A DNA stretch of 64,000 nucleotides. It comes from Naasia aerilata. Its GTDB lineage: Bacteria; Actinomycetota; Actinomycetes; Actinomycetales; Microbacteriaceae. Where the stretch lies: the NCBI RefSeq assembly GCF_030296595.1, contig NZ_AP027731.1, positions 1,178,001 to 1,242,000 on the forward strand. Reading direction: 5' to 3'. The position numbers and the translations under genes are program-made. Below the pieces are notes generated by a model. That model searched no databases, had not been told where the DNA came from, and worked only from the letters and a program-made list of their open reading frames with translations. This document shows positions 55,236 through 61,528 of the stretch, piece by piece. Position 1 is the stretch's first letter. Every line of letters starts with the position of its first letter.

Positions 55236-55295
55236 GCGGTCGCCGGGCGTCGCTCCGGCCGGTTGACAGGCGGGAGCCGCCGATCCTGTGAACAG

Positions 55296-56574: not shown

Positions 56575-57397
56575 TCGGCAGGCGGGCCGGCTGGCCCGCG
56601 GACCGCATGCTCGTCGCCCTCGACATCGACGGCACGGTCCTGCACGAGAGCGGCGTCGTGAGCGACGGCGTCGCGGAGGAGGTCGCGCGCCTCGTCCGCG
56701 AGGGCCACGAGGTGATGCTCGCGACGGGACGCTCGGTGGCGAGCACCCTGCCGGTCCTCGACCAGCTCGGGATCGCGCCCGAGTACTGCGTGTGCTCCAA
56801 CGGGGCGATCACCGTCCGGCGCGATGCCTCGGCCCCGATGGGCTACCGCCGGGAGTACGTGGAGACGTTCGACCCGACCAGCGTGCTGACCACCGTGCGG
56901 GCGCACCTGCTCGACGCGCGCTACGCGGTGGAGGACGAGACGGGGTTCTACCGCTACACGGGGAGTTCCCGACGGGCGCGCTCGGGCTCTCGTCGGAGCA
57001 CGTGACCTTCGAGAACCTCCTGCACACCCGCGCCACGCGGGTCGTCGTCATCTCGCCGGACCACGCGGTCGAGGAGTTCCTCGGCGTGGTCGAGCGGATG
57101 GGCCTGCACCGGGTCAGCTACACCGTGGGCTGGACGGCGTGGCTCGACATCGCTCCGGATGGCGTCAACAAGGCGACCGCCCTGGAGCGGGTCCGCCGCA
57201 CCCTCGGCGCGCCCCGCAAGAACGTGATCGCGGTGGGCGACGGCCGCAACGACATCGAGATGCTGCGCTGGGCGGCCGAGACCGGACGCGGCGTCGCGAT
57301 GGGCCAGGCGCCGCACGAGGTCATCGCCGTCGCCTCGGAGGTCACGGGGCCGGTGTCCGAGGACGGCCTGCAGACGGTCCTCGCATCCATCCGCTGA
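56571..57397 (+). CDS. Cof-type HAD phosphatase
   Basis: About 275 aa HAD hydrolase of class IIB. Motif [14 protein letters not shown], motif [13 protein letters not shown], motif III Lys in [12 protein letters not shown] and motif [14 protein letters not shown]. The break at GGGG 56960-56963 lies in the cap domain; one more G gives [15 protein letters not shown]. Overlaps serS by 4 nt; serS-HAD pairs are common in Microbacteriaceae-like genomes. Probably a sugar-phosphate or nucleotide phosphatase. Confidence 0.88.
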
Positions 57398-57465: not shown

Positions 57466-57550
57466 GGAGGGCTGTCCGAGCGGCCGATGGAGCCAGTCTT
57501 GAAAACTGGTGGGCAGAGATGTCTCGTGGGTTCGAATCCCACGCCCTCCG
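57466..57550 (+). tRNA. tRNA-Ser (anticodon UGA)
   Basis: Acceptor stem GGAGGGC pairs with GCCCTCC (57543-57549); anticodon stem CCAGT/ACTGG encloses CTTGAAA, anticodon TGA at 57500-57502; a variable arm of serine type precedes the T arm GTGGG-TTCGAAT-CCCAC. Discriminator G at 57550; CCA is not encoded. Its 3' end is the likely integration site of the following island. Confidence 0.95.
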
Positions 57551-57556
57551 CTGGCG
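57531..57556 (+). repeat. Putative attachment site, tRNA-proximal copy
   Basis: The 3' end of tRNA-Ser plus six flanking bases. It shares TTCGAATCC and CTCCGCTGGCG, in the same order and nearly the same spacing, with 61504-61528. Confidence 0.55.
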
Positions 57557-57770: not shown

Positions 57771-58154
57771 CGGAGTCAGTGGAAAGCGGCGCCGATCCTG
57801 ACGGGCTTCGTCGGCGGCTGCTCGCCGTGGCTGCAGTACCCGGACCCAACGATGTTCTTCTTCTACTCCATCGCGTTCGGGCCGTACATGCTGCTCGCGC
57901 TCGCCGCGGCGATCGGGCTGATGGTGGTGAAGCAGCCCGCGGCGGACTCCCCCGACGAACTGATCGCGCTCGACGCCTCCTACGGCCTCCGCATCCGACG
58001 GGTCGTCGGCGCCGTGTTCGTCGTCGCCGCGGTGGTGTTCAGCATCTTCTTCTTCCCGATCAGGGGCCCGCCGGCGCCGTACTGGGTCTGGCACATCCAC
58101 ATGTGGTCCCCGACCTGGATCCGACCAGGTAGCACCTGTGGACGGCAGCGCTGA
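57771..58154 (+). pseudogene. Protein O-mannosyltransferase (PMT) C-terminal fragment
   Basis: About 127 codons with two or three hydrophobic helices. APILTGFVGGCSPWLQYPD, TMFFFYSIAFGPYMLLALAA and WVWHIHMWSPTWI match the four-helix C-terminal domain of actinobacterial Pmt (dolichyl-phosphate-mannose-protein mannosyltransferase), where a W-x-x-Y-x-x-R-T-M-F-F-F-Y stretch and a final W-x-x-x-M-W-x-P-x-W-I occur. The catalytic N-terminal ~400 residues are absent, so this is a stranded fragment carried or truncated during island formation. An ATG at 57852 could still start a short membrane peptide. Confidence 0.6.
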
Positions 58155-58266: not shown

Positions 58267-58836
58267 CTAGGCGCCCAGCTGCTTTCGCCCGGCTCGCGAT
58301 GCGATGACTCGCGGGCCTTTCATCTGCATCTGCGCGAACTGCTCGCTGACGCCGAACGCTCGCGCCACCTGCAAGTTGGTCCACTTGGCGAAGGCGGCCT
58401 TTCTCGCCGCGGCTTCGGGCACTAGCAGTTCTCCGGCGACGAAGGTCGCCTCCTTCTCTTTCGTCGCGTCGAGAACTCGGCTGTGATCCGCGCCGAGAAG
58501 GAGACCCTCGAAGGCGTGCTCAAGCAAGTGGTGCCCGAGTTCATGGGCAATGCTCGCCCGACGTCGCACTTCGGCGTGCGCGTCGTTCTCGATGATCACT
58601 CGACTGCGGCCGAGAGGTACGAGCGCGGCCGACCAGATGCCCTTCGTGTTCTCAAAGAAGTGCTGATGGGCTACGTCCGTGAGTTCCCACTCCCGCAGCT
58701 CCGAGAGCGTGTAGACCGGAATGCCGTGCTCGTCGGCGAGCCGGTAGGGGTCCAGGCGGTCGCCGCCGGCAAGGCCCAGCGCTTCACGCTCCTCCTGAGC
58801 AACCTCTCGCATGAGCTTCTGGGTCCACCGCGTCAA
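58267..58836 (-). CDS. ImmA/IrrE-family metallopeptidase
   Basis: 189 aa. The zinc motif is SIAHELGHHLLEHAFEG (H-E-x-x-H, near residue 97), and a downstream Glu lies in KEKEATFVAGELLVPEAA. The family includes ICE/phage anti-repressors that cleave a partner XRE repressor. Its start overlaps the stop of the XRE gene by 4 nt, the standard ImmR-ImmA arrangement. Probably controls the divergent ubiquitin-like operon or formerly controlled element excision. Confidence 0.88.
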   Translation of the reverse strand: MTRWTQKLMREVAQEEREALGLAGGDRLDPYRLADEHGIPVYTLSELREWELTDVAHQHFFENTKGIWSAALVPLGRSRVIIENDAHAEVRRRASIAHELGHHLLEHAFEGLLLGADHSRVLDATKEKEATFVAGELLVPEAAARKAAFAKWTNLQVARAFGVSEQFAQMQMKGPRVIASRAGRKQLGA

Positions 58837-59216
58837 TCCTCCCTCCGCGCATCACTACCTGCTTGAAATCGGCGTGCCGCTGCTGCAATGACCTCCTCCA
58901 GGTACGCAATGTCCTTGCTCGTTAGGTCCTTGCGCGCCCTTAACAGCGGGACCAGTTGTGCAACCAGGTCTGGCTGTTCGTCGACAAGTTCACTCGAAGA
59001 CGCGGTGTAGAAGTTCTCTGCCGGCATCCGGAGCCAGGACGTCATCGCTGCGAATGCCTCAACGTCCGGCTTGAGGTCGTTCGCCATCCGGGAGATGGTC
59101 GACGGGCTCACCCCAAGTTCCTTCGCGAGCTGCCGCCACGACAACCCTCGACGTTCCCGAGCCTGATCTAGAGCGGCGTGAAGGGATTGGACGTCCACCC
59201 GCCGTTCGCCGCTCAT
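58833..59216 (-). CDS. XRE-family HTH repressor
   Basis: 127 aa. HTH: ALDQARERRGLSWRQLAKEL then GVSPSTISRMANDLKPDVE (recognition helix near residue 38). The C-terminal half is helical and has no peptidase motif. Together with ImmA it forms a regulator pair. It is divergent from the ubiquitin-like gene across 139 bp containing a perfect palindrome, its likely operator. Confidence 0.87.
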   Translation of the reverse strand: MSGERRVDVQSLHAALDQARERRGLSWRQLAKELGVSPSTISRMANDLKPDVEAFAAMTSWLRMPAENFYTASSSELVDEQPDLVAQLVPLLRARKDLTSKDIAYLEEVIAAAARRFQAGSDARRED

Positions 59217-59274
59217 CGCCGGGCCGAACGCTGCGCACTGCTCGACATCTCGATCACACGTGCTAGCATAGTAC

Positions 59275-59292
59275 TGCTCGAAACTTCGAGCA
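59275..59292. promoter_or_regulatory. Candidate XRE operator
   Basis: TGCTCGAAACTTCGAGCA, perfect 8-bp arms with a 2-nt spacer, centred between the divergent XRE and ubiquitin-like genes. It follows TCGACA-16 nt-TAGCAT (a plausible -35/-10 on the plus strand), where a repressor would block the plus-strand operon. Confidence 0.65.
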
Positions 59293-59355
59293 CCGCGTCA
59301 GATGTTGCGCACTGGCGGCACGGTGACCAGCGCCAAGGAAAGGAAGTCGATCGCG

Positions 59356-59618
59356 ATGCCGGAGCAGGAGAAGGAGCATGGGAAGGCGACCACGATCTAC
59401 GTGAACACGCGTGAGTTCGAGTGGTCCGAGAAGATGATCTCGTTCGAGCAGGTCTACGGTCTCGCGTTCCCGACCGAGCCGCTGAACGACGGGGACGTCG
59501 TCCGCATCGAGTTCGCCCGGGGGCGAACGGAGGCGGTGCCGGGGCCCTCCAGCCCGGCAAGACGGTGAATGTGAAGCGCGACATGGTCTTCGATGTCTAC
59601 GTCACCGTTCGCAGCTGA
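59356..59618 (+). CDS. Ubiquitin-like (multiubiquitin-domain) protein
   Basis: About 87 aa, one beta-grasp domain of the prokaryotic multiubiquitin type. TTIYVNTREFEWSEKMISFE opens the sheet, then VYGLAFPTEPLNDGDVVRIE, and the last strands KTVNVKRDMVFDVYVTVRS. The C terminus has no Gly-Gly. The break is most likely at the G5 run 59519-59523 (alternative GGGG 59541-59544); one more G joins the two halves. ATG 59356 has AGGAAG 10 nt upstream and is preferred over ATG 59302. It overlaps the E1 gene by 26 nt. Probably a modifier conjugated by the linked enzymes. Confidence 0.8.
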
Positions 59619-60789
59619 CCCGTCGACGAGCCGGCTGCTCGGTGAGGGGTACTGCCTCTCCCTCGAGGGCAACCACCTCATCATCGAGCACGTGCCGTAC
59701 GTCACTCCCGCCGGTTCGGTGGCGTACGGCCGCCTGGCCCTCCCGGTGATCCTCAGTGGAACGACCGTGCAGGACGGCGCCGGCGACCACCGGATCTGGT
59801 TCGTCGGTGAACAGCCGAGCGATGAGAGGGGTCGACCGCTCCCTGGCCCGTCTCCCGAGCCGCACGCCATCACCGCGCAGCTGATCGCGAACTTCATGAT
59901 CTCGAGCAAGCCGAAGGGGATCGGGGCCTTCGCGAACACGTACGACAAGATCACGTCCTACGTGCGAGTTCTCAGCCACCCCGCCCAGATTGTCGACGAA
60001 TCGGTGACCGCGACCCCCGGCGCTGGGTGGAACGAGATCCCGGACGACCTGCCGTTCGTCTACCCCGACACGGGAACGGCGAGAGCAGGACTCGCCGCCA
60101 TGAACGCGGTCTTCCGCGGGCAGCGCATCGGCATCATCGGGCTCGGAGGCACCGGGAGCTACATCCTCGACCAGGTCGCGAAGACCTGGGTCGATGCGAT
60201 CGACCTATTCGACGGCGACGCATTCGACAACCACAATGCCTACCGTGCACCAGGGGCCGCCTCCCTCTCGGAACTGCAGATGCGCCCGAACAAGGCCGAG
60301 TACTTCGCACAGAAGTACGGCCACATGCACACCGGCATCACGGCCCATCCCGTGTTCATCACGGAGGCCAACGTCACGGAACTCAATGGTTGCTCGTTCG
60401 TCTTCATGGCCGCGGCTGACGCGAAGGAGAAGCCGATGATCCTGGACTGGCTGCGCCAAAACGGCGTCCCGACAATCGAGGTCGGCATGGGCATCAGGGA
60501 CGAGGGCGCCGGCCTCTCCGGCCTTCTCGCGGCCGTGAACCACTTCCCGGACCGCGGCGCTCAGGACACCGCGACCTCGCAGGGCGGCATCAACGAGTAC
60601 GACCGCAACATCCAGGTCGCTGACCTCAACAGCTTGAACGCGATCCTCGCCGTCATCAGCTGGAAAAAGTACCTCGGTTACTACGCGAAGGCCGAAAGCG
60701 CGGACGAGGTCGTCTACAAGCTCTTTACCAACACCATTCGCAACGGCCTGATCGACGACACCTCGGCCGGTCAGGAGGAAGAGCTGTGA
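59593..60789 (+). CDS. E1/ThiF-like adenylyltransferase with DUF6791-type N-terminal domain
   Basis: 398 aa. The first ~160 residues form a domain seen in E1-like proteins of bacterial ubiquitin-type operons (AITAQLIANFMISSKPKGIG, YVRVLSHPAQIVDE). The ThiF Rossmann domain has IGIIGLGGTGSYILDQVAK (ATP loop near residue 183), DLFDGDAFDNHNAYRAPG (Arg finger), the Lys in RPNKAEYF and the Asp in FMAAADAKEK. It should adenylate the ubiquitin-like C terminus. No Cys is present in the crossover-loop region after residue 300; the only two Cys are near residues 20 and 270. It overlaps both neighbours. Confidence 0.87.
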   Translation: MSTSPFAADPSTSRLLGEGYCLSLEGNHLIIEHVPYVTPAGSVAYGRLALPVILSGTTVQDGAGDHRIWFVGEQPSDERGRPLPGPSPEPHAITAQLIANFMISSKPKGIGAFANTYDKITSYVRVLSHPAQIVDESVTATPGAGWNEIPDDLPFVYPDTGTARAGLAAMNAVFRGQRIGIIGLGGTGSYILDQVAKTWVDAIDLFDGDAFDNHNAYRAPGAASLSELQMRPNKAEYFAQKYGHMHTGITAHPVFITEANVTELNGCSFVFMAAADAKEKPMILDWLRQNGVPTIEVGMGIRDEGAGLSGLLAAVNHFPDRGAQDTATSQGGINEYDRNIQVADLNSLNAILAVISWKKYLGYYAKAESADEVVYKLFTNTIRNGLIDDTSAGQEEEL

Positions 60790-61169
60790 CGGTCGAGCGC
60801 ATCGAAGGCAGGTTCGTCAAGTCCTTCCCCAGGCCGCTCGAGCCCGGTGTGCTGTACGTTTCAACCCACTTCTCCACGGCTGCACACAGTTGCGCCTGTG
60901 GCTGCGGTCGCGAGGTGATCACACCGCTCTCGCCCGGTCAATGGGTGCTCGCCTTCGACGGCTCGGTGTCCCTATGGCCCTCAATCGGCAACTGGACTCT
61001 GCCATGCCGGTCGCACTACGTGATCGATCACAGCACCATCTCCTGGGCGCAGGATTTCACGCGGGAACAAGTCCTTCGCAATCAGGCGGCTGACGACCAT
61101 GCACTCAGCTCCGCTCGACAGCCAGCGTGGCGACGGGTATTGGGTCGACTCTTTGGGTCCAGGCGATAA
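60786..61169 (+). CDS. DUF6527 (BubE-like) metal-binding protein
   Basis: 127 aa. A Cys/His cluster HSCACGCGREV (residues ~38-48) and a later LPCRSHYVI suggest a zinc site. ITPLSPGQWVLAFDGS and SLWPSIGNWTLPC are the conserved core of DUF6527, a family found beside E1/ubiquitin-like genes (also called BubE). A processing or deconjugating role has been proposed for the family; I see no classical JAB motif. Its ATG overlaps the E1 stop by 4 nt. Confidence 0.8.
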   Translation: MTVERIEGRFVKSFPRPLEPGVLYVSTHFSTAAHSCACGCGREVITPLSPGQWVLAFDGSVSLWPSIGNWTLPCRSHYVIDHSTISWAQDFTREQVLRNQAADDHALSSARQPAWRRVLGRLFGSRR

Positions 61170-61341: not shown

Positions 61342-61503
61342 TTGACCCTGCAATTGGCACTCGTCGCTGCCTGGCGAGAGTCGCCTCTGCCCACAATTGC
61401 TGCGCAAACCGGTGAGGTCTCTCGCGACTCCCCGGTCAAGAATTTCCGGATGACGGCGTCCTTGATCTATCTCGTGGAACGAGGGGACATGCCGACTTTC
61501 TAG
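61342..61503 (+). CDS. Hypothetical truncated ORF at island edge
   Basis: A 53-codon stretch from TTG 61342 to a TAG that touches the distal attachment repeat. It encodes LQLALVAAWRESPLPTIAAQ and ends SLIYLVERGDMPTF. Composition is protein-like but I do not recognise it. Upstream frame is open to 61258. It may be the end of a gene cut by the integration junction, or not coding at all. The remaining part of 61170-61341 shows nothing convincing. Confidence 0.2.
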   Translation: MTLQLALVAAWRESPLPTIAAQTGEVSRDSPVKNFRMTASLIYLVERGDMPTF

Positions 61504-61528
61504 TTCGAATCCAGGGTCTCCGCTGGCG
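61504..61528 (+). repeat. Putative attachment site, distal degenerate copy
   Basis: TTCGAATCC and CTCCGCTGGCG repeated from the tRNA-Ser 3' end with a divergent 5-nt middle (tRNA copy 6 nt). Marks the likely far end of the island. Confidence 0.5.

Follow-up and report, generated by a model that had tools for sequence, protein, structure and literature searches.

Bil and type II CBASS Cap2/Cap3 carry out ubiquitin-like (Ubl) or cyclase conjugation in bacteria and have an E2 domain and a JAB, neither of which is detected by Pfam in the operon described here. The available sections of Iyer, Burroughs, and Aravind 2006 (PMC1779556) describe operons whose Ubl has one to three repeats and whose E1 bears either JAB or, in its place, a domain X that is uncharacterised, together with a gene for a metal-binding-like protein; the domain-X variant (type 6e) is reported there from Actinobacteria (Frankia), among others. 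Structures have also been solved for Citrobacter Bub (PDB 9ea4, 9ea5, 9ea8, 9eae, 9eav, and 9d59); in the available part of PMC13373217, Bub is not shown to be protective against phage.

Operon layout and relation to described systems

The operon belongs to a 3.39-Mb genome assembled as a single contig (completeness 90.6%), from which one window, that is, the whole 64,000-nt stretch of DNA (contig positions 1178001-1242000), was analyzed. A Pfam profile scan identified, in order and all on the + strand, (i) a Multi_ubiq Ubl gene (PF14452, 30.4 bits), (ii) a gene for a 398-aa E1-like adenylating enzyme (59593-60789) with DUF6791 (PF20590, 118.5 bits) and ThiF (PF00899, 33.1 bits) domains, and (iii) a gene for a 127-aa DUF6527 protein (60786-61169; PF20137, 72.7 bits). 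A sequence-only reading of this DNA had predicted three overlapping genes, and the profile searches that it proposed against Multi_ubiq, DUF6791, and DUF6527 returned all three families. The E1 and DUF6527 genes do overlap, by 4 nt, and the E1 start overlaps the end of the Ubl codons by 26 nt (59593-59618), but the Ubl itself is divided between two frames.

By published description, the operon fits the domain-X subtype of polyUbl/Bub-like operons catalogued in 2006 (PMC1779556, available sections), with DUF6791 as the candidate domain X. It shares with type 6e a Ubl, an E1 in which X takes the place of JAB, and a Cys/His protein; the Multi_ubiq gene, though frame-interrupted, lies directly upstream of the E1 gene, and the ThiF-type E1 has a non-JAB N-terminus. 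The domain Y signature of type 6e is matched in part. Alignment of nine DUF6527 sequences revealed invariant H34, C36, C40, C74, and H77, which yields the pattern C36-x3-C40-x33-C74-x2-H77, as compared with the published C-x3-C-x35-38-H-x2-C. These Cys and His residues suggest that DUF6527 is a metal-binding-like protein. In the literature searched, we found no mention of DUF6527 or DUF6791, and no PADLOC model matches DUF6527 or the intact Ubl P0005.

The likeness to Citrobacter Bub lies in the order of Ubl, cysteine-poor E1, and DUF6527, as well as in an invariant tyrosine of the E1; whereas Citrobacter has a JAB fused to the E1, together with BubB (Prok-E2_E), the operon here has neither and contains DUF6791 instead. 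A sister JAB type was found on four plasmids (L053-L056), with Multi_ubiq and Prok-E2_E (fused or separate), JAB-ThiF, and DUF6527; three of these plasmids were scanned with Pfam, and the fourth, L056, was Prok-E2_E-positive by profile search. The Citrobacter koseri copy of the sister type matches the solved Citrobacter BubCD, BubA, and BubB.

The E2-less Ubl-E1-DUF6527 order, which had been taken for a reduced member of these systems, proved to be the usual layout. A gene-neighborhood survey, proposed by the sequence-only reading for actinobacterial homologs and run here beyond Actinomycetota, showed the same three-gene order with no E2 gene between. The layout count comprises 33 distinct loci (L002-L009, L033-L045, L051, L052, and L057-L066); L012/G278 (a sub-threshold DUF6791 match with four internal stops) and L010 (same contig as L003) were dropped, and the count draws on 10 of the 114 plasmid records and leaves aside 4 of the 16 family genomes with DUF6791. 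DUF6527 is present in all 33 loci, and nothing separates Ubl from E1 in the 32 loci that have both, with L034 beginning at E1. The 26-nt Ubl/E1 overlap recurs in at least 22 of the 32 distinct relatives, the alignment stopping short of the E1 start in the other 10. Named sources fall into four phyla (Actinomycetota, Pseudomonadota, Cyanobacteriota, and Bacteroidota), and the other loci include viral contigs. Because an E2 gene between the operon genes is absent in 33 of 33 distinct loci, its absence here is not due to assembly error, which the sequence-only reading had named as the alternative; an assembly gap hiding an E2 was likewise rejected, as the identical gene trio is found on finished plasmids of named origin. 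In Methylomonas (L041:5368-6615), E1 and DUF6527 are separated by an IS256 transposase gene.

The Ubl gene and its frame break

The N-terminal half of the Ubl is encoded in a first frame (59356-59568, + strand; alternative in-frame start at 59302) that stops at a TGA (59566-59568), and its beta-grasp C-terminal half lies in a different frame (59541-59618, + strand; end at 59616-59618) and ends in TVRS. The single 87-aa open frame proposed earlier splices these two frames, the break having been overlooked. Its assignment to a beta-grasp family held up: the Multi_ubiq score exceeds the curated cut-off of 24.5 bits, covering only positions 2-36 of the 69 profile positions, and nothing else in the genome matches Multi_ubiq. 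The Ubl profile is also matched (E 2e-16) by the C-terminal beta-grasp of the ZDHYS365 multi-ubiquitin protein (PDB 9cd2), which ends in TDKS; ZDHYS365, however, has 222 aa and several domains, whereas the Ubl here has one.

The N-terminal fragment is matched in L002-L006, L008, and L010, with L007 and L009 matched by other pieces only, and the two halves are collinear and in one frame in L002-L005 and L010. Among the distinct relatives with a visible Ubl, the protein occupies one frame and has a C-terminal Ser in all 32. At L006:1952-2662, next to an E1 of the same type, is a 236-aa Ubl, for which Pfam gives one Multi_ubiq stretch and whose length suggests three domains.

Frame breaks were surveyed across the window by comparison with 152 kb from three same-genus relatives. 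A stricter filter, in which one relative protein spans two window frames, identified 11 distinct junctions; the junction at 55271-55294 concerns two neighboring genes and was left out, which leaves 10 breaks in 39.9 kb of matched sequence (window 14-57 kb, core genes), those at 22.45 and 28.3 kb being less certain than the other eight. A hydrolase gene beside serS (56577-57397), for example, is split over two frames by a break at 56.95 kb. Runs of four or more G or C residues mark 7 of the 10 break sites, which is a raw count in G+C-rich DNA. Under a looser filter, 17 of 63 proteins from the relatives were flagged, a number that includes antisense or fused ORFs. Completeness is 98-100% in seven of eight genus-mates, the eighth being a 68% draft, as against 90.6% for the host genome.

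With some 10 similar breaks in core genes and a low completeness relative to the genus-mates, assembly error emerges as the likeliest cause of the Ubl break; judged from the assembled sequence alone, the break is probably such an error, and the host assembly is probably unpolished. Given so many frame breaks, apparent pseudogenes in this genome are not trustworthy. A gene truly broken in the strain, with the operon as a decaying remnant, would account for a break that is present in the sequence as given and that sets the host copy apart from the unbroken Ubl of its relatives, but we consider this unlikely in view of (i) similar breaks at about 10 other sites, including the serS-adjacent and other core genes, (ii) a completeness that is low for a single contig, and (iii) the full length retained by E1, DUF6527, and both regulators. 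Programmed ribosomal frameshifting, to which a G-rich run at the break and the start of E1 within the second Ubl frame could point, was rejected as extremely improbable because the Ubl of every distinct relative lies in one frame.

E1, DUF6791, and transfer without an E2

DUF6791 spans residues 13-160 of the E1 and ThiF residues 175-299, and the protein matches NCBIfam NF004804/PRK06153 over its full length (342.1 bits, cut-off 340), a family named only "hypothetical protein." Residues G183, G185, G186, G188, D207, D209, N215, R218, and K234 are invariant in nine E1s, and the positions of the Gly motif and of the Asp, Asn, Arg, and Lys residues are those expected of adenylating enzymes. The nine-sequence alignment contains no invariant Cys (best Cys column at most 4 of 9), and no Cys is common to X-type and JAB-type E1s in an alignment of both types. 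Tyr336 is invariant in both types and seems to correspond to Tyr370 of BubCD, the residue mutated by the depositors of PDB 9eav, when numbering is counted with a two-residue offset.

The predicted structure of the E1 is a model of moderate quality (pLDDT 68.9, pTM 0.49), and its best PDB match is Citrobacter BubCD (9ea4). PADLOC E1-E2 models match the E1 weakly and in the ThiF part only. Its structural or sequence relatives include MccB, PaaA, MoeB, and TcdA, and the E1 could on this evidence activate the Ubl for small-molecule, sulfur-carrier, or peptide chemistry (as in MccB, PaaA, and ThiF), rather than for protein conjugation; the lack of a Cys and an E2 and a Ubl that ends in Ser, not Gly, would agree with such a role. 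We nevertheless regard it as improbable, since BubCD is the best structural match of the whole protein, Multi_ubiq, E1, and DUF6527 are common to the sister operon, and the flanks examined show no conserved neighbors with a biosynthetic function.

Among 15 DUF6791 sequences, H66, G72, P75, G80, S104, K119, and Y123 are invariant. The residue that follows Pro75 is a Cys in 10 of the 15, so a thioester role may be possible in those 10 relatives; in the window copy, it is a Ser. Modeled alone, DUF6791 gave a good model (pLDDT 81.9, pTM 0.77), for which Foldseek searches of PDB and BFVD returned no matches at E ≤0.001. The best, non-significant match was the E2 Atg3 (E 0.085, probability 0.35), and E2-25K appeared at rank 47 (E 3.6); we treat both as hints only. 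Homology of DUF6791 to Prok-E2_E or JAB was rejected (profile probabilities of 0.6% and 0.1%, respectively), and DUF6791 and DUF6527 profiles found no credible match among PDB sequences. As no fold match of DUF6791 is significant and its profile comparisons with Prok-E2_E and JAB gave nothing meaningful, any role given to it is a guess.

Profile searches for three E2 families gave no match in the host genome; across nine operon-bearing genomes, they found Prok-E2_A and Prok-E2_B in 0 of 9 and Prok-E2_E above cut-off in 0 of 9, with one sub-threshold Prok-E2_E match (13.9 bits) in the Demequina genome; Prok-E2_E was found in 4 of 4 sister-type plasmids, which served as the positive control. The absence covers these three E2 families only, the Prok-E2_D and UQ_con searches having given no match anywhere, controls included, and so being uninformative. 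Eight of nine X-type plasmids (the L041 plasmid left out) likewise lack Prok-E2_E above cut-off, with one 12-bit match below it. The ninth, Acinetobacter plasmid NZ_CP010358.1 (L043), has, at a separate site ∼28 kb from its DUF6791 operon, an open frame of 359 aa that matches Prok-E2_E and is perhaps part of a sister-type operon. The earlier suggestion that the operon borrows its E2 from another locus of the genome is very unlikely in light of these searches. Pfam and profile searches found no JAB in the E1 or in the host genome; JAB was above cut-off in five of nine other operon-bearing genomes.

Direct transfer without an E2 is our leading reading of these sequences. With somewhat better than even confidence, we favor a domain-X polyUbl/Bub-like operon in which (i) the E1 would adenylate the Ubl, a single beta-grasp domain, at its C-terminal Ser and (ii) hand it on without a thioester cascade, (iii) DUF6527 would act as a metal-binding accessory or removal factor, and (iv) CapH/CapP-type HTH and M78 proteins would hold the operon repressed until DNA damage, the Ubl break probably being an assembly error. 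DUF6791, in the same polypeptide as the E1, might replace the missing E2 or supply the acceptor. Sister-type operons place an E2-like domain after the Ubl, often within one chain, and the JAB that they also carry plausibly serves to free the Ubl; the X-type Ubl is free and Ser-ended, and thus neither an E2-like domain nor a JAB would be needed for its processing. It is possible, though doubtful, that DUF6791 is a new, fused, cysteine-independent transfer module, such that a single DUF6791-E1 takes a Ser-ended Ubl through activation and conjugation with neither E2 nor thioester, as a one-enzyme ubiquitin-like ligase, in a lineage of its own that spans at least four phyla.

Should the E2-less subtype turn out to conjugate proteins, it would indicate how few components suffice for ubiquitin-like conjugation and whether the place of an E2 can be taken by a domain that is unrelated to it or has diverged greatly. 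The pair of sister operon types, one with E2 and JAB and the other with DUF6791, makes such a replacement directly testable.

Regulators, island setting, and distribution

Directly upstream of the operon, on the - strand, are genes for a CapP-like M78 (ImmA/IrrE-type) peptidase (58267-58836; Peptidase_M78, 60.4 bits; best PADLOC model capP, 46.5 bits) and a CapH-like XRE-type HTH repressor (58833-59216; HTH_3, 39.6 bits), with 62% and 71% identity, respectively, to their counterparts at L003/L010. The sequence-only reading had stated that no E2, JAB, or extra partner is encoded, which is correct for the three-gene operon but overlooks this divergent pair. An HTH and M78 pair beside the operon is a CapH/CapP-type feature, while the assignment of the HTH protein to CapH is weak, with capH at 24.6 bits and several RmrA models higher, at 38.7 bits. 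In the available part of PMC13373217, CapW or CapH plus CapP is tied to 219 of 544 Bub operons, and these regulators respond to DNA damage.

Repeat analysis located an operator-like half-palindrome (59240-59255, copy 1) and an operator-like inverted repeat (59276-59291, copy 2), which form a direct repeat at a distance of 36 nt; a promoter-like site lies beside them (59242-59269). The regulators are shared with L010, where an operator-like pair recurs with identical spacing (1121-1136 and 1157-1172), its inverted-repeat copy having three mismatches (0.04 expected by chance).

The regulators and the operon lie between two att-like repeats on the + strand: the left one (57530-57556) coincides with the 3' end of a tRNA-Ser(UGA) gene (57466-57551), and the right one (61503-61528) repeats that 3' end. 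The att-like pattern has two matches in the window and none in 100 shuffles. Homology to three relatives stops at 57551-57553, the tRNA-Ser 3' end, and the G+C content is 0.63-0.67 over 57.5-62.0 kb, compared with 0.70-0.75 on each flank. From the tRNA-Ser 3' end, the att-like repeat, and the lower G+C content, the segment 57530-61528 appears island-like; no integrase was noted in it among the ORFs examined. Part of a small membrane-protein ORF (57795-57916) matches a second site in the host genome (contig 575835-575956) at 76%.

The distribution of the operon is sporadic and mobile. DUF6791 occurs in 7 of 394 genomes of the class (six above cut-off), 3 of 396 of the phylum, and 16 of 398 of the family, with the host genome included in every count; the eight genus-mates all lack it. 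Relatives of the E1 were found in 114 of 72,556 plasmid records, 10 of which were examined for layout, and a search of 50,697 phage records found none; a phage-borne origin was rejected on the latter count, with three loci in viral contigs. Near individual operons, we observed a caspase-family protein (L038:5894-9152), a ClpP-like subunit (L056:6823-7431), and a SIR2-like protein (L003:7902-9089).
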